From assembly GCF_011299575.1 (NCBI RefSeq), contig NZ_CP049863.1, positions 1,426,001-1,490,000 on the forward strand: 64,000 nucleotides of DNA, given 5' to 3'. Source of the stretch: Leucobacter viscericola. Lineage in GTDB: Bacteria; Actinomycetota; Actinomycetes; Actinomycetales; Microbacteriaceae. Positions 32,212 through 51,614 of this stretch are shown here, piece after piece. Position 1 is the stretch's first letter. Each line of letters opens with the position of its first letter. Below the pieces are notes generated by a model. That model was not told the origin of the DNA. It was given only the letters and a program-made list of their open reading frames with translations, and did no database searches. The position numbers and the translations under genes were made by a program.

Positions 32212-32232
32212 GACTATGAATCTACGGACTAT
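32212..32232. promoter_or_regulatory. Candidate operator: direct GACTAT repeats
   Basis: GACTAT occurs at 32212-32217 and 32227-32232, fifteen bases apart, between the divergent XRE and 108-residue genes. GACT half-sites are typical of controller-protein operators. Two ATTCAAGG copies follow at about 32240 and 32270. The assignment rests on position and half-site similarity. Confidence 0.3.
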
Positions 32233-32284
32233 AAGTAGCATTCAAGGTAAGGTAGTTCGAGTTTCATCGATTCAAGGAGCACCC

Positions 32285-32611
32285 ATGAGCGATATAAAAC
32301 CTGTAACCAACTTCTTCGGCGGGTACCCAAATTCGGCTAACGTGATTGCCGAGTGCATTGATCCGGTGGCAATGTGGCACCTTCTGCGCGAGAACCTCAT
32401 GGTGCAGTTGTCGCAGCGTCCGTCTGAGGTTCTCACTGAACGCATCATTGCTCAAGACAGGTCTGGCCGGAAGCGAATTCAAAAACTCACTGCGCATGGC
32501 TGGACGATCCAGAGCGCCACACCTCGACGAATGCTGCGCGGAGATGTCTACATCTTTATGCGCCCACAGACGACGCGAGAAGAGCGCGAGTTTCTCGGAT
32601 GGAACAAATAA
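32285..32611 (+). CDS. Hypothetical element-borne protein
   Basis: 108 residues from the ATG at 32285, after CAAGGAGCACCC. Begins 'MSDIKPVTNFFGGYPNSANV' and ends 'EREFLGWNK'. Basic C-terminal half with 'RSGRKRIQKLTAHGW'. No signal peptide or membrane segment. Not recognised. It lies opposite the XRE regulator and overlaps no other gene; it may be co-transcribed with the next membrane protein gene. Confidence 0.6.
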   Translation: MSDIKPVTNFFGGYPNSANVIAECIDPVAMWHLLRENLMVQLSQRPSEVLTERIIAQDRSGRKRIQKLTAHGWTIQSATPRRMLRGDVYIFMRPQTTREEREFLGWNK

Positions 32612-32694
32612 AGGGCACCACATCGCCGGGGATAAACCCCGCCGCTATTGATGCCAATATGATTCATTCCCGTTCACTCTACCTGAAGGAAAAA

Positions 32695-33366
32695 ATGCCC
32701 AACAAAGGACTCGCACTCTCATCAGTCATCGTCGGAAGCATCGCCTTCTTGATCGGCTGGATGCCTCTACTCGGACTCATGGTTGGCGCAGTCGCAGTAG
32801 TGCTTGGCATCGTGGCTCTCGTCAAGAAACAGCCGAAAGCGATGAGCATCATAGGAATTGCGCTGGGTGGCGTGGCTGCGATTGCTTCCATCTCATGGAC
32901 AATCTTTGCAATTGCCACTACCGACTGGAACAGCATCACCACCGAAGCGTCAACCGAGAGCATCTCACCCAAATCAAGCCAAGTGCCCACACCTACGCCG
33001 ACAAAAAGCCCCTCCCCAACCAAAACCCCCGAGCCGACCAAAACCGCTCCTCCGGCCAAGAAACCAACACCCACAAAAGAGCCAGGAGCGAAGCCCGTTC
33101 CAGCAAATTCAACTTCAGGCGGACTTACTGTTGGCATGGCTCAAATAGCCTGCGAGAATGCGGCGAAAGAGTCATTCCCATATGGGGTGAAGTTCCACTG
33201 GTATGTGGGCAAAATCGCGGAACGTCTGGAAAACGATGCGTGGTTCTTAAAGGTCGAGATCACCCCTAAAAACGAGCACGGTACGAAAGTCAACGGCATG
33301 GTGATGGAGTGTACGATCACCGGCTCCGAGAACGTTCCTGAGATTCTGGCGTTTGACGTTTACTAA
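32695..33366 (+). CDS. Two-helix membrane protein with Pro/Thr-rich linker and external domain
   Basis: 223 residues from the ATG at 32695 (GAAGGA before it); earlier in-frame starts lack a ribosome site. Two adjacent hydrophobic helices (about 8-43 and 55-80), as in DUF4190-type proteins, then a stalk of about 55 residues with repeated PTPT/KSPSPTK/PEPTK, then an external domain of about 75 residues with two cysteines ('QIACENAAKES', 'VMECTITG'). Similar proteins occur in actinobacterial phages and mobile elements. Function unknown; a surface exclusion role is only a guess. Confidence 0.7.
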   Translation: MPNKGLALSSVIVGSIAFLIGWMPLLGLMVGAVAVVLGIVALVKKQPKAMSIIGIALGGVAAIASISWTIFAIATTDWNSITTEASTESISPKSSQVPTPTPTKSPSPTKTPEPTKTAPPAKKPTPTKEPGAKPVPANSTSGGLTVGMAQIACENAAKESFPYGVKFHWYVGKIAERLENDAWFLKVEITPKNEHGTKVNGMVMECTITGSENVPEILAFDVY

Positions 33367-33829
33367 TTTGCGTCGTTTATGCGAACTGATTTTCCAGATT
33401 GCAAAGGTCACACTTGCACTCGCCTACCTCGGAGCGTAATCTATCAGCCAGAAGCTCACGCGGGAGTTCCCGCACGTCCTAGGACGAGCTTTATTTGCGG
33501 GCTGAGCCTGAAATGGAGACCGTTTTGCTGAGCGAAACGAGGAACCTGGAGTTTGGAAACGGCTGAGCCACCCCTGAGGGTACCAATACTTCTTAAATAT
33601 AGGACTAGGCGAGTGAAACTCGAAATTGGTAAACGTGTGGGGCTGAGCTCTCCACGATTGCCTGAAGGCCGTTTGGGCTAAGCCCTTTTCATACGACCTC
33701 TCATTTTCAAGGCAGGCAAGACCTGCTACTCGATCAACTCGCCTAGCTTTGGCAACCCTTTTCTGACGCTTGCCCATTCTGGTCGTTTGATCGTGTTCAT
33801 TAGGACATACCTAGTCGAAAGAGACGATC
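33367..33829. other. Intergenic stretch inside the element
   Basis: About 460 bases. A leftward open frame at 33424-33777 exists but has no ribosome site and unconvincing composition. The right end (33780-33829) precedes the replication genes and probably holds their promoter. No clear hairpin or tandem repeat. Confidence 0.4.
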
Positions 33830-34057
33830 ATGAATATCACTCTCAGCGAAAGTGTTTGGACGATAAAGACTGCGCCAGAGCACCCTTACGCTAAGCAATT
33901 CAGCATTTCAGAGCGACAATTCCGCCGCGCCGTTCAAAATGGCCGAATTGACTACGTGCGCCCCTGTGGGCTCGTAATCTACTTCACCCACAAAAACATC
34001 GTCGACTTCATCGAGAGTGGCGTAAACGCTCCACTCAAGCGAGGCGGTGCACGATGA
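33830..34057 (+). CDS. Small DNA-binding protein, excisionase-like
   Basis: 75 residues, ATG. The 'FSISERQFRRAVQNGRIDYVRPCGLVIYFTHKNIVDFIESG' core fits a winged-helix fold of the excisionase/MerR sort, with the pattern 'R...V..G.I.Y.R....I.F....I..FI'. The stop overlaps the next start (ATGA), so it is coupled to the primase-polymerase gene. Likely either the excision factor or a replication-linked DNA-binding protein. Confidence 0.65.
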   Translation: MNITLSESVWTIKTAPEHPYAKQFSISERQFRRAVQNGRIDYVRPCGLVIYFTHKNIVDFIESGVNAPLKRGGAR

Positions 34058-36255
34058 CCACCCCAAACACACGGAAGAAATCCGTATCTGCTGCGGCCAT
34101 TCGCCATGCAAAACTCGGACACTACGTCGGCCCACTGAAACCGGCAACCAAAGTTCCCGGTTCACGCCTGGGCAAAGGATGGCACAACAAAACCTCAAAT
34201 GATCCCAAGGTGGTGTCTCAGTGGTACACGGACCACCCAAAGGATGGCTTGTTTCTACACCTGGGTCAATCTGGCCTGATTGCATTCGATCTCGACGTTG
34301 AAGACCTTAACGAACTCCCCCAGCAAATTGCTGACGCACTCCGACTTGGCCTGTTCCAACGCTCTCGGGGCAAGGTTGATCGTGGCCACTACGTGTTTGC
34401 CACACCGGAAAGTTTCGGAAATAGTGCGGGGGGCTTTGCTGGCTGGGGTGATGTTCGCGGGAAGAATGGCGTGATCGTCCTTGCACCCACGATCCACCCC
34501 GTAACAGGGGAACCTTACGAGCTCGTACGTGGCAACTGGGACAATATTCCCGAGCTTCCTGCCGTGCTTCGAAGCCTCATACGTTCGGGTGGGCAACAGC
34601 AACAACCTGCGCTCACTGCATCAGAGTTCGAAAAGAAAGTCCTGTCTTTAACGAGCGGTACTCAGCACGGGCTACTTGAGAAGCACTGTCTGCGGTTTCG
34701 AGTCGATGTTGCTGATGGAGAATCGCGCCACCAAGCAATGCTGCGCTGCTCTCTCATCGTCATGCAAGAAACTCGAGAGGGACATTACCCAGCTGCAGAC
34801 GCGATAGCACGACTCCGCCAGGAGTTCGAACAATCCTTTTCTAACCGCTCCCTTGGAAGGCGGTCAGCGCCAGCAAAAGGCGAATTTGAGGGTTTGTTGC
34901 GATGGGCGAGCGCGCAACCCACTCCGTCCGAGACCCTTGTCGAGCTTTTCGATTCAACCGATGAGCTTCGCATGATTCGACGGTATGCCGAGGAACACTC
35001 AGTAGCACCAGTTGGGTTACTCGCAGCAGGGCTCTTGCGCGCACTCATTTGCCTGCCTCCGCGCAAAGTATTGCCGCCGATTGTAGGGAAAGAAGGACCG
35101 GTGAATCTCTTCGTAGCGCTCGTTGGCCCCTCTGGGGCTGGAAAGGGAGCGACAGAGGATCTTGCTCAAGAAGTGTTTGAACTACCCGATTCGGTCTTGT
35201 CTGACCTTCACATCGGGCGTCCCGGTTCTAGCGAGGGCATAGCAAAAATGTACGGTCGCATGCAGAAGGCCCTCAAATCGAAACTGTGGAAACCCGTTTA
35301 CAAGGTTTCCCGAGTGCTTGCGAGTTTGCCTGAGGTAGATACGCTCGCGGCACTTCTTGGCAGGGACGGCTCACATCTCTCGGCAACACTCCGAGAACTC
35401 TGGACCGGGAGTCGAATTGGCTACGACTATGCACATGTGGAGACGCAATTTACTGTCGGGGCAAAGAGATACCGGTTTTGTCTTTTGATCGGAGTACAAC
35501 CAGAGCGGGCGGGAACGATCATTCAGGGTCAAGCTGGAGGGCTCCCGCAACGCTTCCTCTGGGCAGGTGTCACCGTTCCGCCGAGCAGCTATGTTCGTCC
35601 TTCTGGCGACCGCTCGGACCTCAACCCGATCCAGTTACCGGAAGTGCCTGGTGAAAGTGAGGATACCCTCGCGTGGCGGGACAAAATGCTCTCTGAAGCA
35701 CAAACTGCGGAGCTTGAATGCCTTACGGTGCCCGAAGAAGCCAAAGCACAAATTCTTCGAGCAAGAGAACTCAACCTTCAAGGCTTGTCCGACGATAAAG
35801 AAGGCCATCGACTCTTCCTGCAATGCAAAATCGCAGTGGGGTTCGCGGTCATCCATGGTCGGGTCGACGGATTCAGCAGCGCGCATTGGGAGCAGGCGGG
35901 TCTGCTGCTCGAAGCGAGCGACACAACATATCGGTCGATCCTTCACGCAATCGCCGAGAAGCGGACGCGAGGACGGAACGATGAAGCGAGAGAAGCGGGC
36001 CGCTTACGCGGTATCAGATCCCATGCAGAGGAAGAAGCCATCTCGAAACAAGTGCGAGAACGCATCATCGACGTTCTTGGCGAAAAGGAAAGCACGTCGC
36101 AAACGACTCTCAAACGAAGACTGAGTAGACGGCAGCGAGAGTTTTTTGACGTCGCAATCGCCGCGTTGAAGGATGACAAGCTCATTGGCGTAAAGCGTCG
36201 TGCAATGCAAAACGGTGAGCGGAGCACGCACTACTTTCTCCGAAGCGCCCCTTAG
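34054..36255 (+). CDS. Bifunctional primase-polymerase fused to a P-loop ATPase
   Basis: 733 residues, ATG overlapping the preceding stop. Residues about 10-175 are a prim-pol domain: the acidic pair D79-x-D81 ('IAFDLDVED'), the histidine at 112 ('GHYVFATP') and 'GDVRGKNGVIVLAPTIHPVTG'. Residues about 330-570 contain a P-loop 'GPSGAGKG' (358-365) of the DUF3987 or helicase-like type. It ends with a winged-helix-like region ('STSQTTLKRRLSRRQREFFDVAIAAL'). It likely starts and drives replication of the excised element; such proteins occur in satellites and integrative plasmids. The dyad-rich stretch just downstream may be its origin. Confidence 0.8.
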   Translation: MTTPNTRKKSVSAAAIRHAKLGHYVGPLKPATKVPGSRLGKGWHNKTSNDPKVVSQWYTDHPKDGLFLHLGQSGLIAFDLDVEDLNELPQQIADALRLGLFQRSRGKVDRGHYVFATPESFGNSAGGFAGWGDVRGKNGVIVLAPTIHPVTGEPYELVRGNWDNIPELPAVLRSLIRSGGQQQQPALTASEFEKKVLSLTSGTQHGLLEKHCLRFRVDVADGESRHQAMLRCSLIVMQETREGHYPAADAIARLRQEFEQSFSNRSLGRRSAPAKGEFEGLLRWASAQPTPSETLVELFDSTDELRMIRRYAEEHSVAPVGLLAAGLLRALICLPPRKVLPPIVGKEGPVNLFVALVGPSGAGKGATEDLAQEVFELPDSVLSDLHIGRPGSSEGIAKMYGRMQKALKSKLWKPVYKVSRVLASLPEVDTLAALLGRDGSHLSATLRELWTGSRIGYDYAHVETQFTVGAKRYRFCLLIGVQPERAGTIIQGQAGGLPQRFLWAGVTVPPSSYVRPSGDRSDLNPIQLPEVPGESEDTLAWRDKMLSEAQTAELECLTVPEEAKAQILRARELNLQGLSDDKEGHRLFLQCKIAVGFAVIHGRVDGFSSAHWEQAGLLLEASDTTYRSILHAIAEKRTRGRNDEAREAGRLRGIRSHAEEEAISKQVRERIIDVLGEKESTSQTTLKRRLSRRQREFFDVAIAALKDDKLIGVKRRAMQNGERSTHYFLRSAP

Positions 36256-36558
36256 AGCGGTGGCCCTGGGGCGGTTGGCATCCCGCCGTGTTAATTAGGG
36301 ACGGTGAGGGAGGCTGGGGCGGTCGCGAGCCTGATTCAAGGATCAGCTCGTTCCCGGCCTAGCCTCCCCACCTCCCTGGCCTCCCCTAAAGAACTGTGGG
36401 AACTACCCACCGCCCTCCGGCGACCTCCGACGCATCGCCCTACTCGCGTAGGGGGTCGGTTCACTCCCCCTAGTAGTGAAATCTCTGGAGAAGAGGTTCG
36501 ATTAGCTCTCAGGCGGAAGGCGTAGATGGACGTTTTCGCCTGAAACAAAGGACAAGAC
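36256..36558. other. Dyad-rich gene-free stretch, candidate origin or resolution site
   Basis: About 300 bases between the primase-polymerase and serine recombinase genes. It contains a hairpin at about 36325-36350 with arms CGAGC(C)TGAT and ATCAGCTCG, a perfect 6-bp-arm hairpin at 36438-36453 (CCCTAC/GTAGGG), and matched GGGAGGC / GCCTCCC tracts at about 36308 and 36361. It has no credible frame. Placement fits a replication origin or the site used by the serine recombinase. Confidence 0.4.
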
Positions 36559-37197
36559 ATGCATATGATCGGATACATTCGCGTCTCAACCGAGGAGCAA
36601 GAGCGCTCAGGCCTTGGCGTCGAAGCTCAACAAGAGGCCCTCGACGCAGAATGCGAACGACGCGGCTGGACGGCCGAATTCGTCGCGGACCTTGGACGCT
36701 CCGGCAAAGAAGTAAATCCGCAACTGCGTCACGCGCTCGACTTGCTTGCGAGCGGACAGGCAGACGGCCTAATGGTCTCAAAGCTCGACCGCCTCGCTCG
36801 TTCCGTGCGGCACGCTTCAGCAATCATCAACGATGCACAAGAACGAGGCTGGAATCTCGTCGTACTTGACAATGCGCTCGACCTCTCCACCCCAGGAGGT
36901 CGGGCCATGGCGAATATGCTTGCCACGTTCGCTGAACTGGAGCGGGATCTTATCTCCACTCGCACGAAAGAGGCTTTAGCGGCTCGCGCCCGCCGCGGGG
37001 ATCTAAATGGGCGGCGTAGCGCTATACCAGCGGGACTGCTTCGCCGCATCGTCTTGTCTCGCGAGGCAGGTGCATCATTCTCTCGAATCGCACGAGAACT
37101 CACCGCCGAGGGCTTTCTCTCACCAACTGGTCTCGACATTTGGCAGGAATCCACCGTGCGCCGGGCATATGCAGCCACGACTCGAACGGAGGCATAA
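36559..37197 (+). CDS. Serine recombinase (resolvase/invertase family)
   Basis: 212 residues, ATG at 36559 after AAAGGACAAGAC. N-terminal catalytic domain 'MIGYIRVSTEEQERSGLGVEAQQEAL' includes the nucleophile serine in 'RVST', and 'VSKLDRLARSV' and 'GRAMANMLATFAELERDLISTRT' are conserved. The C-terminal part ('RRIVLSREAGASFSRIARELTAEGF') is a helix-turn-helix. Small resolvase type, not a large serine integrase. With a tyrosine integrase immediately downstream it is unlikely to be the integration enzyme; it may resolve dimers or invert a segment. Confidence 0.85.
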   Translation: MHMIGYIRVSTEEQERSGLGVEAQQEALDAECERRGWTAEFVADLGRSGKEVNPQLRHALDLLASGQADGLMVSKLDRLARSVRHASAIINDAQERGWNLVVLDNALDLSTPGGRAMANMLATFAELERDLISTRTKEALAARARRGDLNGRRSAIPAGLLRRIVLSREAGASFSRIARELTAEGFLSPTGLDIWQESTVRRAYAATTRTEA

Positions 37198-37202
37198 AAG
37201 AA

Positions 37203-38345
37203 ATGGCACACGTAAGAGAGGTCCCACGCAAGGGCGGCAAACGCGCCTACGAGGTGAGATGGCGTGACCTTGCTGGCAAGAATAGCCAGCGCACATTCAC
37301 GGTAAGACGAGAAGCTGAACGGTTCGCGGCAAGGATCGAAAACGAGCTAGCCGCTGGCGATGATTCCCATCATGCGTTGAAAAACAGGAAAACAATACAA
37401 GAAGCAATCGATGCTGTGCTTGCAGCCGACAGACACCGTCTGAAACCACGCACGTTAGATAGCTATCGAAAGATTTATGGCAAGCGCATCACCGAGAAGT
37501 TCGGCAACCGTCGTTTGAATACCCTGAAGCGCGGCGAGATACAACACTGGATAACGGAACTTGCGGGAGATGGTTTGGCGGCGGCTACCGTGAAACACCA
37601 CTACCTCGCTTTGCGAAAGCTGTTCAAATGGGCGATTAGGGAGCGTCTTCTCACGCACGATCCTTGTGAACACATTTCACTCCCACGTCGCTCAACGTCT
37701 AACGAGTATCCGATACTTTCGGTGGCTGAGATTCAACGTCTTGCTGAAGTGCTTGAAGACACCCCGCCTTACGGCTTACTGGTGCGTTTTATGGCATATA
37801 CGGGCCTGCGCCTAGCTGAGGTCGCGGGGCTGAGAGTTTCAGACGTAGAACTTGGCAATAGACGTCTTTTCGTGAGGCAAACGGCACAGCGGATCACGGG
37901 GAGGGGTTGGGTCCTCGGAGCCCCAAAGTCAAAACGGTCAACGCGGGAAGTTCCACTATTGGACAGCAGACTGATCGCCGACCTGAAGACTCATCTTTTG
38001 ACACACCCGGACCCTGGTCGATCCGGCGCACTCTTCTGGCCTGGCCGCTCTCCCGGCTCCAGAGAACTTGACTATGACCGCATGTTTGATGGGGCGAGTT
38101 TTCGCCGCAATCGTTTTAGTACCGCGCTAATACAGGCGAAACTGCCAAAGATGCGCCTCCACGATCTGCGCCACACCGCTGCGAGTCTCTGGCTGGCAGC
38201 AGGATTCCAACCATACGAGGTCAGCCGCTGGCTCGGACATGCGAGCGTTACCACGACTGACACGATTTACGGGCATCTCTACCCAACAAACTATCGCGAT
38301 CATATGGAGAAATTCGAACGATACATGGCACGAGAAACTGACTAA
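37203..38345 (+). CDS. int: Tyrosine site-specific integrase
   Basis: 380 residues from the ATG at 37203, with GGAGG ten bases before it, five bases after the recombinase stop. N-terminal arm-binding domain ('RRGGKRAYEVRWRD'-like), SAM-like core-binding domain at about 60-155 ('RTLDSYRKIYGKRI'), and catalytic domain from about 170. Catalytic residues visible: Arg in 'TGLRLAEVAGL', Lys in 'APKSKRSTREVPL', H-x-x-R in 'LHDLRHTAAS', His in 'WLGHAS', and the tyrosine in 'TDTIYGHLYP'. It presumably recombines the tRNA-Lys 3' half. Complete and probably active. Confidence 0.9.
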   Translation: MAHVREVPRKGGKRAYEVRWRDLAGKNSQRTFTVRREAERFAARIENELAAGDDSHHALKNRKTIQEAIDAVLAADRHRLKPRTLDSYRKIYGKRITEKFGNRRLNTLKRGEIQHWITELAGDGLAAATVKHHYLALRKLFKWAIRERLLTHDPCEHISLPRRSTSNEYPILSVAEIQRLAEVLEDTPPYGLLVRFMAYTGLRLAEVAGLRVSDVELGNRRLFVRQTAQRITGRGWVLGAPKSKRSTREVPLLDSRLIADLKTHLLTHPDPGRSGALFWPGRSPGSRELDYDRMFDGASFRRNRFSTALIQAKLPKMRLHDLRHTAASLWLAAGFQPYEVSRWLGHASVTTTDTIYGHLYPTNYRDHMEKFERYMARETD

Positions 38346-38465
38346 AACAATAGTCCATTCTCCGAGCCATAAGTTAGCAACGAACCGTCAATGTCAGCGG
38401 CCACGGGTAACATTTTGCTTTGAGAGTGCGACACAAGGTTGTTCTCTGAAATTAGGAGCATATAG

Positions 38466-39428
38466 ATGGCTGATTTTCTGTCCGACCTTACTGTCGGAAG
38501 CTTATCTGCATTCATTGGCGGGGGCGCAGTAGTTCTTGCGCCCACGCTTCTAAAATTTCTACGAACCCAAAAGGAGCTTGGTAAAGACAAACGAAAGACT
38601 GCAAATGCGCGATCAGGTAAAGGCGGGGTAGCAGTTGCTATCCAAGATTCCCCCAACAGTGACCTGGACATCCATGTGGATAACAGCCGTCAAATCACGA
38701 TCAAGAACATCACCCATTCAAACTCGCAGGTAGGCGCGAATACATCGAAATCCTCTGGTGACGACCCCTGGCTGATTGGAATCGCTGGCCTAGTTGCAGT
38801 GGGGGCGTTCGCAGTTTACTTCGACTACGTATTCTGGTTCACGCTTGGCGCGGTTCTTGGGCTTTTGGTTGCCGGTTCACTGGCTGTGATCCGGGCACAT
38901 TCCTTGCGCTTGTGGACCCGTAAAGATTTCCTGATTGCAATTGAAGTCTCAATTGCGCTTACGGCCACGATATGGACCTGGATCAGCATCTTCACCGCTT
39001 CACACCGGGGCGTAACGCTGGATGAACTACGGACTCGCGCTGCAGAGATGCCCTCTGAGTTTCCTACCGCTTCGGGGCTTGCCGGCTGGGCTTCCGAATT
39101 CTTCAGCCCAGTGATCTCATTTGTAAAGATCGCGTTCGATGAGGATCAATTATTCTTCGCTCTGACGCTCACTGGGGCTTGCGTACTATCGTCAACGCTG
39201 CTTGTCCTGGCATGGGTGAGACTCATCGATTGGTACACTTTCATGGGCTTTCGTTACGGCAAGGGAAGCGAAAGGGCCGCAAAGAAAGCTTGGCGTTATT
39301 CTCAGCCTAAGGGCGCAAACCTGATTTACTTCATCATTGTTGGCACTTTCGTCATACTTTTGGCAAGTGGTACAGCTCTACATTTCGTCGAAAATTCACT
39401 CGCCCAATCCACAGCATTGACCTATTAG
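38466..39428 (+). CDS. Multi-pass membrane protein of unknown function
   Basis: 320 residues, ATG after AGGAGCATATAG. A first hydrophobic segment at about 8-30, a soluble stretch of about 70 residues with 'NSRQITIKNITHSNSQVG', then about five more membrane helices. The C-terminus faces out or ends in 'STALTY'. No recognised family. It lies in the cargo slot between the integrase and the DUF262/HEPN pair and faces the latter. It could be a membrane effector of a defence system or an unrelated accessory gene. Confidence 0.6.
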   Translation: MADFLSDLTVGSLSAFIGGGAVVLAPTLLKFLRTQKELGKDKRKTANARSGKGGVAVAIQDSPNSDLDIHVDNSRQITIKNITHSNSQVGANTSKSSGDDPWLIGIAGLVAVGAFAVYFDYVFWFTLGAVLGLLVAGSLAVIRAHSLRLWTRKDFLIAIEVSIALTATIWTWISIFTASHRGVTLDELRTRAAEMPSEFPTASGLAGWASEFFSPVISFVKIAFDEDQLFFALTLTGACVLSSTLLVLAWVRLIDWYTFMGFRYGKGSERAAKKAWRYSQPKGANLIYFIIVGTFVILLASGTALHFVENSLAQSTALTY

Positions 39429-39593
39429 GCAATCGTCTGCACCACTGGGGTCGAGGTGCCGTTAGTTTCCCGTGGTCGTTGAGTCGTCTGAGACTAGGCG
39501 TGAGTTGCGACGATCATGGGAATCTGCCCCGAGCCAGTCGGAATGCCCACCAGATAGCGATTAAGAACTTTCCCCTGAAGCAAGATGCAGACT

Positions 39594-40307
39594 CTATTTC
39601 AGATACTTCTCATCAGTCAAATAGCTCGCCCATTCGATTGAAATGTGGATAATCAAAAAGACGAGATGTTCGAGATGTTGCTCAAGGTGATTCGCTGACC
39701 GATCCGCTTGTCGAAACACTTCCTCAATACTGATATTTCGATGGGCCACGTCATTTCGAATCTGGGTGAGCTTCTTTAATGAGGCAATCACAAATGCCGA
39801 AGGCTCAGGTATGGGGTTCTCGATCCCAAGAACCTGCCAAACCAACGCCAAATGACTGGTTTGAATAGTTTTGCCGTCAAGAGGAGGCTGGGGAGACTTG
39901 AAGGACCTTTCAGGGAAAACTGCAACCTCAGAAGCTTCGTCCAATGAAGTTAGCCCTAGCCGCTTCGGCCAAACCTTGCTCCTATCGCGAAGAGCGAGCA
40001 GCGATTCGAAATCAGAATGGGCCACAAGAGCGCGAAGTGACGGTTTCAAATCCCTGAGTCTTACTTGCGAGGAATTGATGCACTCTCCAATAGAAATAAG
40101 CATCTCGCGAAGAATCGCTTCTAGCTCAGCCATTCCCGCAATAACAGATGCTCCCTTGAGTTCTCGACCAAGGAAGCTCGTTTCAGATATGCCGGGCAAT
40201 GATCCCGCAGACAGCAGTATCAAACGCGATCGCCACTCAGACAAACGCTCTGTTGCTGAATCTGCTAAATCATATGCTCTTGCAGACGCAAGCTCATGCT
40301 TGGCCAC
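39594..40307 (-). CDS. HEPN-domain protein (MAE_28990-like), probable RNase partner of DUF262
   Basis: 237 residues from a GTG at 40307 that overlaps the stop of the preceding DUF262 gene; the frame is open to 40436, and starts at 40397 or 40436 are possible, so the start is uncertain. Mostly helical. Near the C-terminus 'RNDVAHRNISIEEV' holds the R-x4-H motif of HEPN ribonucleases (Arg184, His189). The combination of DUF262 with a HEPN protein of this type is a known pairing in defence islands; the family name is from memory of the pairing and the motif. Likely the toxic effector. Confidence 0.65.
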   Translation of the reverse strand: MAKHELASARAYDLADSATERLSEWRSRLILLSAGSLPGISETSFLGRELKGASVIAGMAELEAILREMLISIGECINSSQVRLRDLKPSLRALVAHSDFESLLALRDRSKVWPKRLGLTSLDEASEVAVFPERSFKSPQPPLDGKTIQTSHLALVWQVLGIENPIPEPSAFVIASLKKLTQIRNDVAHRNISIEEVFRQADRSANHLEQHLEHLVFLIIHISIEWASYLTDEKYLK

Positions 40308-41349
40308 TGAACAGCTTTTCAGCACGATCGACTCGCCTGGAGAGCATTGAGCGCGTATTTGTGCCGCCCGTGCTCGAATCAATGAGCTCTTTGTCATTGA
40401 GCCAGTCAACTTCTGGAACCCGCGGGCTCTCCCCACGTTCGATAATTCTTGCTATACCCAGCAACGTAGCCTCAAATTGAACAAGAGGCGTAACCGAGGT
40501 TCCTGAGCGCAAGAAAGGCCCCCCGACCGCTTTCGCCAGAAACGAAACGGTTGCCTCAAAAGTTGCCTGTTCCAAGACATAGTCAAATTTGTCACCCGGT
40601 TGCTCTGCAAAGTTGTTTAAGAAAGTAGTAACTGCCCCTTTGAATTTATCTGAGTCATTTTTGTAGGCAAAGAACTTTAAGACTTGTTCGGTCGAAGTGC
40701 CATCGTGCTTATTCGAGTCTTGAAGTTTAAGCAACGAGCCGAGATCGCTGTTAGCCGAGATTCTTTCAATGAAGTCGAGAAAATCGCCACCATAGACCGC
40801 AGTTCTGACTTCCTGCGGAGTGAGAGATATCGAACCTGTATTTAGGCGTTCAAAAAGATCAAAACGAACAGACTTGTCGCTCTTATCAGTTAATGAAATT
40901 ATCTGTAGCGGCTGCCGTGAGAAGTGCCTCTGAATCGTGTCCGGAAGGTCCGCATAGCCGTATCCATTGAGCTGCGTTAGTTTTTCCAATTCACCTAAGG
41001 CAAGAGGGGTTTCGCTTCGAACACGTTCCCTTGCTTCCGCATCAGAACTCATGAACAGAATTAGGGTCGAAATGCGTTGCAGCCCGTCTACCACTTCCCA
41101 ACGAAAATCACTGTTCGTAGCAACGAAGATCGGAGGGATGGGAAGCCCCAGGAATATTGACTCAATAAAAGCGGACGCAACCTTCTTACGCCAACGATAT
41201 TTTCTTTGGTAGGCGGGAGCGATGCTTAGTTCATCGGCCTCGTACATGCGCACTAGCTCTCGGGTCGAAAAGCTAACACTAGCAACATCTACCTTTCGTC
41301 TCTCGACTGCTAGCTGCGCTTCAAGCCCATCGAAAACAGTTTGTGTCAT
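40294..41349 (-). CDS. DUF262 (GmrS/ParB-like) protein
   Basis: 351 residues, ATG at 41349. Residues about 25-100 have the DUF262 layout: 'ELVRMYEADELSIAPAYQRKYRW', 'ESIFLGLPIPPIFV' and the D88-G-L-Q-R92 motif in 'WEVVDGLQRISTL'. Related proteins are NTP-using or ParB/Srx-fold nuclease subunits such as GmrS of type IV restriction. The rest is helical. It lacks a GmrD/DUF1524 HNH domain, whose place seems taken by the overlapping HEPN gene. The gene lies at the edge of the element, beside tRNA-Lys, a common site for defence cargo. Confidence 0.8.
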   Translation of the reverse strand: MTQTVFDGLEAQLAVERRKVDVASVSFSTRELVRMYEADELSIAPAYQRKYRWRKKVASAFIESIFLGLPIPPIFVATNSDFRWEVVDGLQRISTLILFMSSDAEARERVRSETPLALGELEKLTQLNGYGYADLPDTIQRHFSRQPLQIISLTDKSDKSVRFDLFERLNTGSISLTPQEVRTAVYGGDFLDFIERISANSDLGSLLKLQDSNKHDGTSTEQVLKFFAYKNDSDKFKGAVTTFLNNFAEQPGDKFDYVLEQATFEATVSFLAKAVGGPFLRSGTSVTPLVQFEATLLGIARIIERGESPRVPEVDWLNDKELIDSSTGGTNTRSMLSRRVDRAEKLFSGQA

Positions 41350-41433
41350 GTAATCATGCTAGCTCTCTTTACCACCCCGCCACTCGAAGTCTTACAATAA
41401 CGAAGTTGGCACCTAACTGCAGGGACTGGGCGC

Positions 41434-41453
41434 CGAGGGGATTTGGAGGGGAT
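41434..41453 (+). repeat. 20-bp end repeat, right copy
   Basis: CGAGGGGATTTGGAGGGGAT, one base different from 27931-27950. It lies 47 bp from the tRNA-Lys end of the element, on the element's side. Candidate recombinase or excision-factor binding site. Confidence 0.55.
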
Positions 41454-41500
41454 TTCTAGAATCCCACCAGAACAGGAGGCTTGCGTTCCCTTACAAGCAT

Positions 41501-41545
41501 TGGTGCCCCCAGTAGGGATCGAACCTACGACCTGCGGATTAAAAG
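41501..41545 (-). repeat. Right attachment site inside tRNA-Lys
   Basis: The 3' 45 bases of the tRNA-Lys gene, repeated at 27743-27787 with two paired T-stem differences. In the usual geometry this 3' half was supplied by the element at integration. Confidence 0.85.
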
Positions 41546-41575
41546 TCCGTAGCTCTACCGCTGAGCTATAGGGGC
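41501..41575 (-). tRNA. tRNA-Lys (anticodon UUU)
   Basis: 75 nt including an encoded CCA (41501-41503). Acceptor GCCCCTA pairs with TGGGGGC; D-arm GCTC...GAGC; anticodon loop CTTTTAA gives UUU; T-arm GTAGG-TTCGATC-CCTAC. The 3' 45 bases are the right attachment site of the element, so the gene was probably rebuilt by integration and remains functional. Confidence 0.95.
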
Positions 41576-41647
41576 CAACCCGACTAGCGTAGCGGATACT
41601 TCGCCGCCTCGCGATTCGGGCACACAACCCGCGCTTTTAGGCCTGCG

Positions 41648-41697
41648 GTGAACGCATCCCAACATAATGGTCACTCATTACGTTGGAACGCGTTCAC
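41648..41697 (-). repeat. 50-bp imperfect palindrome, copy B (likely terminator)
   Basis: Begins GTGAACGC, ends GCGTTCAC, with inner arms CCAACATAATG and CATTACGTTGG. Pairing extends outward to 41643-41702, giving a 27-bp stem with few mismatches. It lies 50 bases after the stop of the leftward desaturase gene, before tRNA-Lys. Same length and layout as 263-312. Confidence 0.75.
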
Positions 41698-41746
41698 CGC
41701 AGATGCAAAAGCAGGGTAGCGACATTAGCCAGGCAATAACAGAGCC

Positions 41747-42814
41747 CTAAGCCTTACGGTACTCCGCCATAATCGGGCATTCGAAGGGATCCCTTGCAGC
41801 CAGGCCAACTCGGTTCAGATAGTCGATCACAATCCCGTACGACTTCCAGATCGTGGTCTCGGTGTAGGGCACATTCAAGGTCGAGCAGTGCTCGATCACA
41901 ATCTCGCGAGCCTTCGCGAGGTGTGGCCGGGGCATGCTCGGGAAGAGGTGGTGCTCGATCTGGTAGTTCAGGCCGCCCATAAACCAGGTTGCGGCCCAGC
42001 CACCGGATACGTTGCGCGACGTGCGCACCTGCTTCGAGAAGAAGTCGAGGCGGGCGCCCTTCGCGAGAACCGGCATACCCTTGTGGTTTGGCGCGAACGA
42101 TGCACCCATGTACACACCAAACACCGCGAGCTGTACTCCCACAAACGCGAACGCCATGCCGAGGGGCAAAAACAGGAACACGGGAGTGAGGTAGAGCGCA
42201 AAGCGGGCGAGGATCATTGCGATCTCGTACCAGCGCTTTTTCACGGGACCGGTCGAGAACAGGTGCTTCAGGCTGAGGTAGTGCAGGTTCAGGCCCTCAA
42301 GTGTCAGCAGCGGGAAGAACAACCAGCCCTGCTTGCGGGTAATCAGCCGAATGATGCCACGAGACTTGGCGGCGTCCTCTTCCAAGAACGAGATGGTGTC
42401 GACATCGATGTCGGGGTCTTTACCCACCATGTTCGGGTTCGAGTGGTGCCTGGTGTGCTTAGAATCCCACCACGAGTAGCTCATGCCGATGGATCCGGCG
42501 AGGATCCGCGCCAGCCGATCATTAGCGGGACCGAGCGGCATGATCTGGCGGTGGGCCGCCTCGTGCGTTAGAAACGCAATCTGCGTGAAGATGATCCCGA
42601 GCGCACCAGCGATGAGCAGCTGGAACCAGCTGTTGCCGAGAAGCACAAACCCGGTGATCGAACCGCCAAGGGCGACAGCGATCAACACGGCAACGAAGGT
42701 GTAGAACCAGGGAGTGCGCCGTAGTAGGCCGCTTTCACGGATAGTCTGGGCGATCTCGGTGTAAGCGCGCGTCATCTTGGGAAACGTGTCGCTGGTGGCG
42801 TAGGTCTGACGCAA
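41747..42814 (-). CDS. Membrane fatty acid (acyl-CoA type) desaturase
   Basis: 355 residues from a TTG at 42814; no clear ribosome site, and the frame stays open about 40 codons further upstream without a standard start, so the N-terminus is uncertain. The three histidine boxes are visible: 'HEAAHR', 'HTRHH' and 'QIEHHLFP', the last typical of front-end or linoleoyl-CoA-like desaturases. Two pairs of membrane helices lie between them ('FVAVLIAVALGGSITGFVLLG', 'LTPVFLFLPLGMAFAFVGV'). It inserts a double bond in membrane fatty acyl chains, using diiron and O2. An 18-bp palindrome lies upstream. Confidence 0.85.
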   Translation of the reverse strand: MRQTYATSDTFPKMTRAYTEIAQTIRESGLLRRTPWFYTFVAVLIAVALGGSITGFVLLGNSWFQLLIAGALGIIFTQIAFLTHEAAHRQIMPLGPANDRLARILAGSIGMSYSWWDSKHTRHHSNPNMVGKDPDIDVDTISFLEEDAAKSRGIIRLITRKQGWLFFPLLTLEGLNLHYLSLKHLFSTGPVKKRWYEIAMILARFALYLTPVFLFLPLGMAFAFVGVQLAVFGVYMGASFAPNHKGMPVLAKGARLDFFSKQVRTSRNVSGGWAATWFMGGLNYQIEHHLFPSMPRPHLAKAREIVIEHCSTLNVPYTETTIWKSYGIVIDYLNRVGLAARDPFECPIMAEYRKA

Positions 42815-45877: not shown

Positions 45878-46074
45878 AGCCTAACGGTTGAACTACTTCG
45901 TCGTGTTCCCGCTGCTACTTCACACCACAATTCGGCTACGTATTTACCCCGATGATTTCCGCTTATGTGTCATTTGCACTACGCAATTGGCCCCTGTCGC
46001 GGTGTGGAATAGAAACGTAGTCTTTTCTGTAGGGGTACCGCGGGCCATATCGGCCAGCGGAAAAGGGGCACATC

Positions 46075-46236
46075 ATGTATGAAGACGGCACACTCGCGGT
46101 CACCGGAGGAGCACTCACGATCCTCGGTATCGGCACCGGCCTGTGGTGGATCTTTGGCGGCATCGCAATTGCGGCGGGCCTCGGGATTCTCGCAGTTCGA
46201 CTCGTCGCCCAGCGGCGAGCTCGCGCAGCGGAATAG
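46075..46236 (+). CDS. 53-residue mini-protein: a near free-standing sortase sorting signal
   Basis: ATG at 46075 with AAAGGGG eight bases before it. Residues 1-6 are MYEDGT, residues 7-11 are LAVTG, then a glycine-rich hydrophobic helix (12-41) and a basic tail ending 'RRARAAE'. This equals the C-terminal signal (LAVTG/LASTG, helix, Arg) of the three anchored proteins in the window, but nothing precedes it. It has no separate signal peptide; the helix alone could insert with the N-terminus outside. Sortase cutting would leave a 10-residue peptide ending LAVT. It is 2 nt upstream of a hyaluronan-synthase-like gene. It may be a small anchor, acceptor or partner for the polysaccharide; this is inference. 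Confidence 0.8.
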   Translation: MYEDGTLAVTGGALTILGIGTGLWWIFGGIAIAAGLGILAVRLVAQRRARAAE

Positions 46237-46238
46237 CG

Positions 46239-47570
46239 ATGAACCGTCGCAGTGCGGGCCTCATCGTATTGGCGCTCGCACTCTTAGCGGTCGCTTTTCT
46301 CTGGTTAGAGGCCGGCACGATTCCCTGGTACGGGCTCACTCTGGTCTCACTCTTTGGCATCAAGATTGGCTTCTCTTGGCGCGCTATTGATCGCAAGGCA
46401 GCAACTGAACCGGAGATCGCACAGCTCGCGTCCTTCCGCGTCGGAACAGCGATCCCGGTCTACAACGAAGACCCAGAGCTGCTCGCGCGCTGCCTCGAGT
46501 CTCTGCTCGCCCAGACGCGTTTGCCCGAGTCAATCGCCGTCATCGATGACTGCTCAAACGACTCGGCCGCGATAGACGTTGCGCGCGCAATGAAACCGGC
46601 CTTCGAGGCCGCCGGGGTCCGGCTCCTGATTCGCCAAATGCCTGTCAATCGCGGCAAGCGCGAGGCCCTCATCACCGCGCTCGATATGCAGCCAGACATC
46701 GACACGATGCTCTGCGTTGATTCAGACACCGTACTGCTCGAGACGGCGGTCGAGCGCCTGCTACCGGCATTTCTCGACGACGACACTCACGCCGCGACCG
46801 GCCTTGTGCTCCCCCTCAACTTCGACAAGAACTTGCTGACCAGACTCACCGACGTGCGTTACGCCAACGCCTTTTTGTTCGAGCGCGCGGCCTACTCCTC
46901 GCTGGGTTCGGTGCTCTGCTGTTGCGGATCGCTCGCGATCTACCGCGCCGCGCTCATGCGAAAGTACCGCGATGATTTTCTTGGCCAGACTTTCCTTGGC
47001 CAACCCGCGGTGTTTGGTGACGACCGTCGGCTCACCAACTACGCGCTTCTTGAGGGGCAGGCGAAGTTCCAGTCAACCTCCGTGGCGTTCACCGCAGTTC
47101 CCGAACGGCTCGGCCACTACGCGCGCCAGCAGGTGCGCTGGTCAAAGTCCTTCTTCCGCGAGTCGATCTGGGCGGTCGGACACCTCCCCACGAAGCGCCC
47201 CGCCTTCTGGCTTTCAGCTGTAGAGCTCGCTTCGTGGGTGGTCTTCTCCCTCGCGCTCGTCATTTCATTGATCGTGATGCCCGTGGTGGTGGGTCAACTC
47301 CTTATTGTGCCTCTGCTGCTCTACGTCATGTTGCTCGCCTACGCCCGCTCGGCGCGCTATTTCGAAGTCACCGGGCTGCATCGCACCAAATCAGACGTGT
47401 TCATCGGCTTTGCGATCGCACCGCTCTACGGGGTGTTCCACGTCACCGTGCTGGTTTGGCTGCGTATCTATGCGCTGGCCACGCTCAATCGCGGCAGTTG
47501 GGGCACCCGTAAGCAGGTCGAAGTCCGAGCACATCAACCCATCATCCAAGCATCTTCAGGATCGGAATAA
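46239..47570 (+). CDS. Processive family 2 glycosyltransferase, hyaluronan-synthase-like
   Basis: 443 residues, ATG 2 nt after the mini-protein stop. Two N-terminal helices (about 5-48), a cytoplasmic GT-A domain, then about three membrane helices (322-430). Catalytic motifs: 'AIPVYNED' at 71, D161-S-D163, the acceptor-site 'FGDDRRLTNY' at 259-268, and 'QQVRW' at 297-301. These match processive GT2 enzymes (HasA, NodC, cellulose synthase), which polymerise and extrude a beta-linked polysaccharide. The partner UDP-glucose dehydrogenase suggests UDP-glucuronate as one substrate. The 'CCCGSLAIYR' segment differs slightly from typical 'CGPLAMYR'. Confidence 0.85.
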   Translation: MNRRSAGLIVLALALLAVAFLWLEAGTIPWYGLTLVSLFGIKIGFSWRAIDRKAATEPEIAQLASFRVGTAIPVYNEDPELLARCLESLLAQTRLPESIAVIDDCSNDSAAIDVARAMKPAFEAAGVRLLIRQMPVNRGKREALITALDMQPDIDTMLCVDSDTVLLETAVERLLPAFLDDDTHAATGLVLPLNFDKNLLTRLTDVRYANAFLFERAAYSSLGSVLCCCGSLAIYRAALMRKYRDDFLGQTFLGQPAVFGDDRRLTNYALLEGQAKFQSTSVAFTAVPERLGHYARQQVRWSKSFFRESIWAVGHLPTKRPAFWLSAVELASWVVFSLALVISLIVMPVVVGQLLIVPLLLYVMLLAYARSARYFEVTGLHRTKSDVFIGFAIAPLYGVFHVTVLVWLRIYALATLNRGSWGTRKQVEVRAHQPIIQASSGSE

Positions 47571-47572
47571 CC

Positions 47573-48886
47573 ATGCGCATCTCGGTCATCGGTTGCGGTC
47601 ACCTCGGCGCAGTCCACGCGGTTACCCTCGCGAGTTTGGGACACAGTGTCGTTGGCATTGACGTCTGCGAGGCGACGATTGCTTCCCTCAGCTCGGGACG
47701 ACCCACGTTTCTCGAACCGGGCCTCAGGGAGGGACTGCGGGATCAGCTTTCCTCTGGGCGCCTCACGTTTTCAACTGATGTGTCGCTTGCCCGCGGCGCA
47801 GACGCGCACTTCGTGTGTGTTGGTACACCCGCAAAAGCCGACGGCGAAGCCGACCTCGGCGCGCTTTTCGCGGCCGTCGACGCGCTCGCGCCCCTGCTGA
47901 CAGAGAACGACGTTCTGATCGGAAAGTCGACCGTACCTGTCGGCACCGCCCGCTTGGTTGCTGCGCGGGTACGCGCCGCCGTTGCGTGGAATCCCGAGTT
48001 CTTGAGAGAGGGAACCGCGATTGCAGATTCCTTGCGCCCCGATCGCATCATCATCGGTGCAGACACGGCGGCGGCTCAAGAACGAGTTGCTGCCGTGTAC
48101 AGTGGCCTCTCGGCAGCGGGCGTGCCGATCCTGCGCACCGGGCTCGAATCAGCCGAGTTGGCCAAAGCCGCGTCGAACGCGTTTCTCGCGCTACGTCTCA
48201 GCTACATCAACTCCCTCGCGCAGCTCTGCGAGGCAACGGGTGCAGACGTGCGTGAGCTCTCCGCGGCGATGGGATCAGATGCCCGGATCGGAAGCTCATA
48301 CTTCAACGCCGGTTTAGGCTACGGTGGCGGCTGCCTCCCAAAGGATCTCTCGGCGCTGCGGGCCCAAGCGCTGCACGCCGAGGCAATGGATCTCTTTCAC
48401 CTGCTCGACACGACGGCCCGAACGAACCAGACTGCGCTTCAGCGGGCCGCGGAACTCGTGCTGGGGGCGATCCTTCCCGGCGAAAAAATCGCGATTCTGG
48501 GGCTCACCTTCAAGCCCAATACCGATGATGTGCGGCAGTCACCCGCTCTCAACCTTGTCAGCCAGTTGGTTTCACACGGCCTCAGCGATTTCGCCTGCAC
48601 TGATCCGGCGCTCGTGGGCACGGCAGTCTCTCTGGCGACCGGGGTCTGCCAGGTGAGTGATCTCCACTCCGCGCTCGAGGGGGCAGCAGTGGTTGTGCTC
48701 GCCACCGAGTGGCCGGAGTACACCGCGGAGCGGGTCACACGGGGCTCACCCCGAGTGGTGCTGGATCTTCGGAACGCCCTGGATCCTGCGTCCGTTCGCG
48801 CGCAGGGATCGCAGTACATCGGACTGGGTCAGGGGCCGAGCCTGAGCCCGGCCCCCTCTCCAACCACGGTGCCGCAAACTACCTGA
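47573..48886 (+). CDS. UDP-glucose 6-dehydrogenase
   Basis: 437 residues, ATG 2 nt after the glycosyltransferase stop. It oxidises UDP-glucose to UDP-glucuronate with two NAD+. Visible: NAD site 'GCGHLG' (7-12), 'CVGTPAKADGEADL', 'VGTARLVA', 'WNPEFLREG' (139-147), Lys198 in 'ELAKAASNAF', and the catalytic Cys254 in 'GYGGGCLPKD'. The tail ('SLSPAPSPTTVPQTT') extends beyond the usual end. UDP-mannose-type relatives differ mainly in substrate, so UDP-ManNAc is possible. Its 3' end overlaps the opposite M1 peptidase gene by 8 bp. Confidence 0.85.
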   Translation: MRISVIGCGHLGAVHAVTLASLGHSVVGIDVCEATIASLSSGRPTFLEPGLREGLRDQLSSGRLTFSTDVSLARGADAHFVCVGTPAKADGEADLGALFAAVDALAPLLTENDVLIGKSTVPVGTARLVAARVRAAVAWNPEFLREGTAIADSLRPDRIIIGADTAAAQERVAAVYSGLSAAGVPILRTGLESAELAKAASNAFLALRLSYINSLAQLCEATGADVRELSAAMGSDARIGSSYFNAGLGYGGGCLPKDLSALRAQALHAEAMDLFHLLDTTARTNQTALQRAAELVLGAILPGEKIAILGLTFKPNTDDVRQSPALNLVSQLVSHGLSDFACTDPALVGTAVSLATGVCQVSDLHSALEGAAVVVLATEWPEYTAERVTRGSPRVVLDLRNALDPASVRAQGSQYIGLGQGPSLSPAPSPTTVPQTT

Positions 48887-51614
48887 GCTTTTCCGCCCGG
48901 TACAGGAACGCGGCGGTTGCCTCGCGGCTCGTCGCACCCTTGGGAACGAACTTCAGCGTTCCATTGCGCTGTTTGTAGCCCTCAGTGATTCCGTTCGAGG
49001 CCATCCACCGAATCTCTTTCGCGAACTTGTGATTCGCGGAGACATCGGTGAACTTCGCTGAGATCGAACCGTTCGGAATCTGCTTGGAATAGTGGCGGTA
49101 CATGAAGGCCGCCATAGCCTCGCGTGTGATCGGCTCCTTCGGACCAAACTTCAGCTTGCCGCCTGCGAGCTTGGTGCCAGTCGTCACCTTCGTCTCGTAG
49201 GCCCACATAATCTGGGTGTAGAACTTGTCCCCGGGCTTCACATCGACGAACGGAGACTTGCCCTTTGGTGTGTAGTTCTTGACGCCGCTGTCGCGGTACA
49301 AGAAGGTGACCATTGCCTCGCGGCTCACCTTCTCAGCAGGCATGAACTTGAGCGTGCCGTCCTGCTGCCTGTATCCGGTCGTGATGCCCTTGCCCGCGAG
49401 CCACGCGATGGGTTCGTAGAACTTGTGGTTCTTTGGCACATCGGTGAACTTGTCTGGCTTGGGAGCAACATCGGCAGGAACCACCTCGGTGGTTGCCCAG
49501 CCAATGAGCTCGTTGAGAGCAGAGTGCACTGCAACCTTGTGGCTGCCCAGTGCTGCGTCGGCGGGAACCGTCAGCGTGAGGGTCTTGTTCTGCACCGCAG
49601 CACTACCCAGGACTCGCGGGGCAGAGAACAGCAGCCCGGTGAGCGTCTCTCCATCGTAATCAGCGGTGGGCAGTGTTATGGTGAGGGTCTCCCCCTGCTT
49701 CACCTTTGAGGGCATCGAGATGCCCCCGCGAGCCGCATCGGTCAGGTCGGCCTCGGTCACCGCGGGCAGCGCCGGCGTTGTGTGCTCAACCGAGCAGGAA
49801 TCGCAGGTCACACCGAGCGTGGCGCCTACGGCCGACACCGGCAGCGTGACACCGTGGGCGCGATTCGACAGCTTCGCAGTGAACGAGGTTGTCGCGGTCC
49901 CGGCAACTGCCGTATCGGGCACCGCCCAGGTGAGCGCAAGACCGTTGAGAGTCAACTCTGCTGGCAAGGAGGACGCGTCAACGGTTGCTGCCGATCCCAA
50001 CCCGCTCAGGTCGATCGTCGCCACCCCGCCGGTCACCGGAACCTTACCGGTGTTGGTCGCCGAGAGCTGGTACTCGATGGTGTCGCCTGGAGCGACTGCA
50101 CCCGAGGCAGGAGTGCTCGTGAGCGACAGGGTCCAGGGTGATGACCAGGCGGGTTTACCCGCGTTGTAGATCCACGACTGGAAGAACGGATCGAGATCCT
50201 TACCGGAGAGTTCTTCGGCCAGGGCCTGAAACTCGACTGTGGTCTGGCTCGTGCCGTTATTGCGCGCGTTCCACTCCTTGAGCAGCTGGTCAAACACGCT
50301 CGGGGTCAGCGACTGCTTCAGCGCTTCGTAGGCCATCGCGCCTCGGGTGTACACCTGCCAGTCGAACAATTGGCGCGGATCCGTCATCGCCCCGGGCGGA
50401 ACGGTCCATCTCGCGTGAGACGAGGCCGTGCTATTCCAGGTGTTGTAGTAGGTGTCTGCCGTTTTGGCTCCCCCGGTCACCTCTTGCGTGTACATCGCTG
50501 AGGCGTAGGTTGCCATGCCCTCGCTGATCCAGATGCTGTTCCAGTCTCGCGGGGTGACACCGTCACCGAACCACTGGTGTGCGATCTCGTGCACTAGCGT
50601 GCCAAGCGAAACGCTGCGCTCAAAATAGGATCGATCCTGCGTCTCAAGCGCGTATCCCAGTGTCGTGATGTCTACGACGATGCCGGTGCTGCCACCGGGA
50701 TAGGGGCCGTACTTTGATTCGAGGAAGTTGATGATCCCCTCGATTTGGCCGCGCCGCGTCTGAATTGTTGCCTGGTTGGCTGTCGTGACGGCCGGATCCA
50801 CGAAGGTCCACTCTTGAATCGTGCGTCCGCTCGAGAGGTTAATGGGGGCGTTGTAAACGAGGTAGTTGCCGATCGAGACCATCGTGGCCATCGTCGCCTG
50901 CTGCCGCTCTTGTTTCCACTGCCAGGTCGTCTCGGTGCCGTCGGCCGACGGGGTCTTTGCCACGAGTTCACCGTTGCTCGCGGCCGCAGCATCTTTGCCG
51001 CCGATCTGAGTCGGGATCGTGAACGCAAAATCAAACGTCGCTTTGTCTGCGGGGGTGTTGTTGCTCGGGATCCAGGTCATCGTTCCGACCGGTTGCCCCA
51101 GTGCCGTCGCTCCGTCGGCGGTCTGTACCCAGCCTTCCTGCGAGCCATCAAGGTCGTTGTGTGTGACGGGCGTGCCCGAGTACGCGACCTCTACCGTGAA
51201 CTCGCCCGCCGGGATCGGGGTCGCCGGGGTGATGTGCAGCTTGAACGACTCGATGGAGGGATCGGAGCTGCGCGTGAATGCCGCATCAACACCGTTTACT
51301 TTGAGGGAATCAACGTTCAGCCCCTCGAAGTCGAGCGAGAAGGATCGCAGCGGCTGCGCCGCGGTGGCCGTGATGGTGGTGACCGCCGTAATCGACTTGT
51401 CAGCCAGGTAGTGCAGCTTAACGTCGTAGTGAGTGACGTCGTATCCGGTGTTACCGATGCCCGCGAAGAGCGAGTCACCAATAGTGGGTGCTCCGTCGAT
51501 TGGGTCGACAGCGCTGGCGGCGGTCGCACCGAGCGGTGCGGCGAGCGCGATTGCGACGGCTGTTGCCGCGGCAAGCCCGGCTCTGCGGGCGCGCCTCAGT
51601 GAATGAAACTCCAT
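48879..51614 (-). CDS. Secreted M1 metallopeptidase with SLH-like repeats
   Basis: 911 residues, ATG. Signal peptide 1-36 ('AAATAVAIALAAPLGATAASA'). Peptidase part about 50-480: zinc site H342-E343-x-x-H346 with E365 in 'WISEGMATY', and an exopeptidase-like loop 'GYALETQ' at 320-326 in place of GAMEN. Residues about 490-700 are two beta modules. From about 715 three SLH-like repeats ('FTDVPKNHKFYEPIAWLAGKGITTGY'). The enzyme is thus an aminopeptidase-like protein held at the cell surface. No sortase signal. Likely processes peptides outside the cell. Confidence 0.9.
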   Translation of the reverse strand: MEFHSLRRARRAGLAAATAVAIALAAPLGATAASAVDPIDGAPTIGDSLFAGIGNTGYDVTHYDVKLHYLADKSITAVTTITATAAQPLRSFSLDFEGLNVDSLKVNGVDAAFTRSSDPSIESFKLHITPATPIPAGEFTVEVAYSGTPVTHNDLDGSQEGWVQTADGATALGQPVGTMTWIPSNNTPADKATFDFAFTIPTQIGGKDAAAASNGELVAKTPSADGTETTWQWKQERQQATMATMVSIGNYLVYNAPINLSSGRTIQEWTFVDPAVTTANQATIQTRRGQIEGIINFLESKYGPYPGGSTGIVVDITTLGYALETQDRSYFERSVSLGTLVHEIAHQWFGDGVTPRDWNSIWISEGMATYASAMYTQEVTGGAKTADTYYNTWNSTASSHARWTVPPGAMTDPRQLFDWQVYTRGAMAYEALKQSLTPSVFDQLLKEWNARNNGTSQTTVEFQALAEELSGKDLDPFFQSWIYNAGKPAWSSPWTLSLTSTPASGAVAPGDTIEYQLSATNTGKVPVTGGVATIDLSGLGSAATVDASSLPAELTLNGLALTWAVPDTAVAGTATTSFTAKLSNRAHGVTLPVSAVGATLGVTCDSCSVEHTTPALPAVTEADLTDAARGGISMPSKVKQGETLTITLPTADYDGETLTGLLFSAPRVLGSAAVQNKTLTLTVPADAALGSHKVAVHSALNELIGWATTEVVPADVAPKPDKFTDVPKNHKFYEPIAWLAGKGITTGYRQQDGTLKFMPAEKVSREAMVTFLYRDSGVKNYTPKGKSPFVDVKPGDKFYTQIMWAYETKVTTGTKLAGGKLKFGPKEPITREAMAAFMYRHYSKQIPNGSISAKFTDVSANHKFAKEIRWMASNGITEGYKQRNGTLKFVPKGATSREATAAFLYRAEKLR

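Follow-up and report, generated by a model that had tools for sequence, protein, structure and literature searches.

A LAxTG-bearing microprotein gene paired with a hyaluronan-synthase-like GT2 gene in Leucobacter viscericola and other actinobacteria

The window analysed here, a stretch of 64,000 nucleotides from Leucobacter viscericola (contig NZ_CP049863.1, positions 1,426,001 to 1,490,000), carries a cassette of three consecutive genes on its forward strand. The first of these (46075–46236) encodes an LAxTG microprotein of 53 aa (referred to as the mini), which is laid out as MYEDGT, LAVTG, a single hydrophobic helix and an Arg tail (RRARAAE). It is followed by genes for a hyaluronan-synthase/NodC-like processive GT2 enzyme of 443 aa (46239–47570) and for a UDP-glucose dehydrogenase-like nucleotide sugar dehydrogenase of 437 aa (referred to as UGD; 47573–48886). 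The start of the GT2 was taken to be the ATG at 46239, the mechanical open reading frame (ORF) beginning at 46143. Upon re-reading of the sequence, the coordinates, the lengths and the 2-nt gaps between the three genes were found to be exactly those of the preliminary description of this DNA. A likely ribosome-binding site of the mini (GGAAAAGGGG) could be read at 46059–46068 on the same strand, and purine-rich stretches occupy the same place 5′ of many other minis. The LAVTG codons (46093–46107, + strand; mini residues 7–11) form a candidate class E sortase site. Moreover, the likeness drawn earlier between the C-terminal pattern of the mini and that of three anchored proteins in the window was borne out, as LAVTG or LASTG followed by a helix and a basic tail ends the three large proteins encoded at 1231–3537 (+), 12366–17930 (+) and 23387–25741 (–).

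Convergent with the cassette lies a gene for an M1-type peptidase with three SLH domains (48879–51614), which overlaps the end of the UGD gene by 8 nt. An empty-site comparison in the genus yielded a match to this M1 peptidase in four of six genomes, with a long match only in G323, and the surroundings of the latter held none of the window neighbours that were searched for. The window also contains a stretch of low GC content (28000–42800; 52.9% vs 62–64% on the right) that leaves the cassette outside and that harbours a tRNA-Lys (41501–41575) and, by reading, an integrase-like ORF (37140–38345). This stretch may be an integrated island.

The window GT2 matched PF13641 (Pfam), and all five of its PDB matches were hyaluronan synthases (including 8smm at 8.3e-31 and 7sp7 at 1.8e-29), with the 8smm and 7sp7 alignments spanning the GT2 domain as well as the membrane region. 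Its score against the NodC model TIGR04242 (184.4 bits) was under the equivalog cut-off of 550. The window UGD contained three UDPG_MGDP_dh domains and scored 357.8 bits against TIGR03026 (cut-off 189.8), with UDP-glucose dehydrogenases as its best PDB matches and with scores under the TuaD and AglM equivalog cut-offs. Going by the adjoining UGD and by similarity alone, the product of the window GT2 would be a GlcA-GlcNAc polymer.

The preliminary description had treated mini, GT2 and UGD as one three-gene unit. Among 39 chromosomal GT2 genes in wide loci, a close UGD (44% identity or more) was found near four, that of the window included, and a more distant nucleotide sugar dehydrogenase (27–29%) near another five; these counts are minima, as several loci end at contig ends. 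An earlier gene clustering had given five UGD loci and missed distant ones. Elsewhere, a UGD was present in two of seven actinobacterial plasmid records and, in distant form, in three of 74 viral loci, and none was found in the region of Streptomyces phage Kromp. In the viral contigs L186 (3318–4532), L187 (3324–4358) and L236 (2465–3694), the gene for a distant nucleotide sugar dehydrogenase precedes that of the mini. The complete mini-GT2-UGD order recurred on two Streptomyces plasmids, where gaps of 213 and 333 nt separate GT2 from UGD. With a close UGD near only four of the 39 wide chromosomal loci, we rejected UGD as a defining partner: the mini-GT2 part of the proposed cassette recurs, and UGD accompanies it occasionally.

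The mini had no family in Pfam, NCBIfam or PHROGs, and a single-sequence search retrieved itself alone among 5.8 billion proteins, so that relatives were traced via the GT2. The resulting collection comprised 55 distinct chromosomal GT2 genes from the family, order and class of the window's genome, from three other families and from two further loci, gathered at thresholds of 1e-60 to 1e-100, with few candidates scored per genome in the larger searches. Start codons of minis were picked by eye, the counts take in related sequences, and a GT2 scored as mini-less may hide a mini missed by the filter (cf. L171 and L179). At E<=1e-40, one of 54 genomes of the genus contained such a GT2, namely the window's own, and a second search of the family with a Leifsonia relative as query again returned only this genome among 199. 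The same genome carries a second mini-GT2 pair (L030, 8303–9894), the mini of which contains both LSTTG and LAMTG; the two GT2 copies are 33% identical. A profile search of a protein collection, in which 7992 candidates were scored, revealed 34 mini-like proteins including both from the window's genome, with LPMTG in one and LTLTG in another. No plasmid matched a Nocardiopsis mini used as query, and the Firmicutes synthase loci L015–L021 (seven of ten) showed no sortase-type mini.

A separate one-helix mini was located upstream of 37 of the 55 chromosomal GT2 genes, another five (one clade) carried a comparable helix fused to the GT2 at its N-terminus, and for the remaining 13 none was found. 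A helix with a basic end is common to almost all minis. The mini and GT2 genes possibly overlap by 1–8 nt in 22 of the 37 pairs, an upper estimate obtained by placing the GT2 start as close as possible to the stop codon of the mini. Both features fit a subunit that is made together with the synthase. The recurrence of tiny LAxTG proteins directly 5′ of GT2 synthases across actinobacteria, in the same gene order, had been put forward as a check and was indeed observed; judged from these comparisons, the recurring unit is mini plus GT2, with its gene order kept across actinobacteria. When fused N-termini were compared with the mini profile, one of four beat 200/200 shuffles and the others were reached by 5, 9 and 10 of 200, so that the profile lends weak backing to an equivalence of fused helix and mini. 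The fused N-termini that were read contained no LAxTG.

The LAxTG motif was present in 19 of the 37 chromosomal minis vs 0.31 expected from composition shuffles. In these 19 it sits 36–48 residues from the C-terminus, with 4–28 residues ahead of it. LA.TG was also the commonest pattern of its kind, the runner-up occurring in nine of the 37 minis. Over 33 minis, the x position took 13 residue types (A, S, G, T, Q, V, M, L, R, K, I, Y, H) whereas L, A, T and G were constant. Among seven related chromosomal minis (21 pairs; mean pN 0.23, mean pS 0.55, ratio 0.41), the LA.TG codons varied synonymously with the residues kept. A Tyr at residues 2–4 was found in 15/19 chromosomal and 9/15 other LAxTG minis. 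In the window mini, with its helix core at residues 25–41, the gap between motif and helix is wider than in other minis (e.g. that of L081). Conversely, 18 of the 37 chromosomal minis were devoid of LAxTG and kept the helix and basic tail, including every one of the five minis that stem from the five other genomes in the family to which the window belongs, and the trait required at least 7–8 changes on the GT2 tree. The preliminary description had stated that free variation of the motif would refute its proposal; on this point the picture is divided, as LA_TG is fixed where present, yet roughly one chromosomal mini in two has lost it. Where it occurs, LA_TG is, by these sequence counts, conserved beyond chance.

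Plasmid, phage and IMG/VR sets served as later tests, being examined once the motif was already defined. Of 22 plasmid records matching the GT2, seven were actinobacterial, and all seven were examined. Six of these had an upstream LAxTG mini, with LATTG, with LAQTG (two Streptomyces records) or with LAYTG (three Pseudonocardia records sharing one identical protein), and an Actinomyces oris record carried the fused helix-GT2 form. Among 50,697 phage records, only Streptomyces phage Kromp matched, its gp78 being a LASTG mini whose gene shares 4 nt with gp79, which encodes the GT2 (L163, 5696–7374). Two scans of IMG/VR gave 27 and 47 loci with 16 contigs in common, and three loci truncated within the N-terminus of the GT2 were passed over; this left 55 contigs whose viral status is the assignment of that collection and of which four repeat another's mini exactly and a fifth nearly so. 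These 55 comprised 27 with LAxTG, seven with LPxTG, 14 whose mini has neither motif and seven in which no mini was found, placing L[AP]xTG in 34 of the 48 mini-bearing contigs. Two ORFs neighbouring IMG/VR loci matched a phage recombination exonuclease and phage repressors. Across the plasmid, phage and viral set, LAxTG was present in 14 of 21 minis vs 0.21 expected from shuffles, and in 15 of 23, alongside three LPxTG, once two filter-missed minis had been added. The mini-GT2 pair in Kromp and the IMG/VR contigs (L171–L190, L200–L246) is possibly a module for host-surface conversion.

As a further control, small ORFs with a transmembrane segment and a basic tail were compared over 119 loci (duplicates and overlapping viral loci retained; L104–L120 left out), and L[AP]xTG was found in 57 of the 90 that adjoin a GT2 start vs three of 200 elsewhere. 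This rarity elsewhere bears on the idea of the mini as an independent small surface anchor of the ordinary kind, sharing the GT2 operon by chance. NCBI does name some relatives as LPXTG cell wall anchor domain-containing proteins (as with some Nocardiopsis proteins among the 34 found by profile), and a small LAXTG family, NF058583, exists; however, mini and GT2 are found together in many GT2 lineages, on plasmids and in one phage, their genes frequently overlapping, few comparable ORFs at other places carry the motif (3/200) and a fused form exists, making an independent anchor highly improbable.

According to PMC5148588, LAXTG is the signal of class E sortases, whose substrates include the Streptomyces chaplins. 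The window's genome encodes one class E sortase (L121, 612–1412; NF033747 at 194.5 bits vs a cut-off of 160) and two class C sortases, and the window mini follows the class E substrate pattern of LAxTG, hydrophobic helix and basic tail. A Pfam sortase match was present in all 35 genomes searched, by which we rejected sortase absence as the cause of LAxTG-less minis; and since 18 of the 37 minis have no LAxTG in spite of this ubiquity, the module does not depend on the site. On Pseudonocardia plasmids, a class E sortase gene is divergent from the mini-GT2 pair (L157, 2588–3313; source Apterostigma dentigerum), and the one such sortase that was scored reached 204.8 bits vs the class E cut-off of 160. 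A search of 43 loci with four sortases returned this Pseudonocardia locus only, and a regularly adjacent sortase gene was thereby rejected. No signal peptide was found ahead of the sorting signal of the window mini, where MYEDGT alone precedes LAVTG; insertion with the N-terminus outside would fall to the helix itself. K and R were more numerous beyond the helix core than ahead of it in 36/37 chromosomal and 22/23 plasmid, phage or viral minis, from which the motif is expected on the outer side, the one served by sortase; C-terminal ends of the Rxx[FW]R type occurred in 21/37 and 16/21, respectively.

The mini had originally been proposed to be a free-standing sorting signal that acts as anchor, primer or regulator for the polymer. 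The occurrence of LAxTG beyond chance supports that proposal in part, and the 18 of 37 minis that keep helix and tail without the motif indicate that it is more than a signal; together with the fused clade, these minis make the more basic role look like that of a synthase subunit. One could take this further and regard the mini as purely an accessory helix for the GT2, comparable in role to PgaD/IcaD or the membrane anchor of BcsB, with LAxTG as a side effect of an Ala/Gly/Thr/Leu-rich segment. The retention of helix and tail in motif-less minis and the absence of the motif from the fused N-termini read fit this; the 19 occurrences against 0.31 from composition shuffles, the chemically free x next to steady L, A, T and G, the synonymous changes at the LA.TG codons and the presence in some relatives of LPxTG, another sortase signal, do not, and we consider a purely accessory helix unlikely. 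On balance, it is somewhat probable that the mini is a dedicated single-helix subunit of the hyaluronan-synthase-like GT2 whose short outside segment, here as in many other lineages, is a genuine site for class E sortase.

Under this reading of the mini as subunit and sortase site, the GT2 and UGD would together make a glucuronate-containing, hyaluronan-like polymer. The mini would be oriented with its N-terminus outside and its basic tail inside, its helix packing with the synthase. Sortase E could then cut LAVT|G and join the exposed N-terminal peptide to peptidoglycan, by which the synthase or the nascent polymer would be tied to a wall site served by sortase, this purpose of the tether being conjectural; the linked peptide may anchor the polymer, prime it or simply free the subunit. 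The same sequence evidence might also be read as a sortase-licensed switch, in which cleavage removes the short outer peptide to activate or localise the synthase and the wall-linked peptide has no role. The run of just 4–28 residues before the motif speaks for it, but the outer peptide is partly conserved in its Tyr at residues 2–4 (15/19 and 9/15), and we regard the switch as quite unlikely. A more far-reaching proposal would be a class of actinobacterial and actinophage systems in which a stand-alone sortase signal acts as synthase subunit and as polymer anchor or primer, sortase E joins polysaccharide covalently to the wall via a short peptide, and phages and plasmids use the system to recoat their hosts; this appears rather improbable to us.

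Wall attachment by sortases is known for proteins and not for polysaccharide systems. If the preferred reading is true, a microprotein with a sortase signal that recurs next to a processive synthase, on plasmids and in a phage too, would link sortase anchoring with polysaccharide making, and the small mini-GT2 pair would lend itself to easy genetic testing. The pairing further hints at a surface-conversion module of actinophages and, for the hyaluronan-synthase-like GT2 enzymes of actinobacteria, at a partner in the form of a small subunit.

Compared with known systems, the mini shares LAxTG, hydrophobic helix and basic tail with class E sortase substrates, from which it differs in being paired with a GT2 and in having neither signal peptide nor outer domain. 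NCBIfam NF058583 (LAXTG_small_WW, LAXTG motif-containing small protein) likewise describes a small LAXTG protein, and its existence means that curators have noticed such proteins. It matched 14 of 24 proteins at E<=0.01 (19 LAxTG minis and five database relatives), the best of which scored 33.8 bits vs a cut-off of 65; the window mini did not match it at E<=1, and none of 149 genomes of the window's order contained a protein over the cut-off. The hyaluronan synthase/NodC family includes the solved relatives of the window GT2, which differs from that family in having a microprotein partner. Small membrane partners of processive GT2 synthases include PgaD/IcaD and the BcsB helix; to our knowledge these carry no sortase motif, and we liken them to the mini by role alone. 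Literature searches, with most subscription journals outside reach, revealed no sortase-signal microprotein paired with a GT2. For Actinoplanes missouriensis, PMC13251363 gives class E substrate candidates of 219–762 residues; in the LAxTG minis, 4–28 residues come before the motif. In MatAB of Streptomyces, a membrane protein is combined with a GT2 synthase for a surface polymer (PMC4391728, PMC5972031). According to these two papers, in which the word sortase is absent, the stop and start codons overlap, as in many mini-GT2 loci, and the authors liken MatA to IcaD. MatB differs in carrying a deacetylase domain and MatA is far longer than the mini, a matA frameshift yielding a stop at residue 176; it is by this length alone that we set MatA apart from the mini as a different protein. 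Among the studied actinobacterial pairs that we found, MatAB comes closest.
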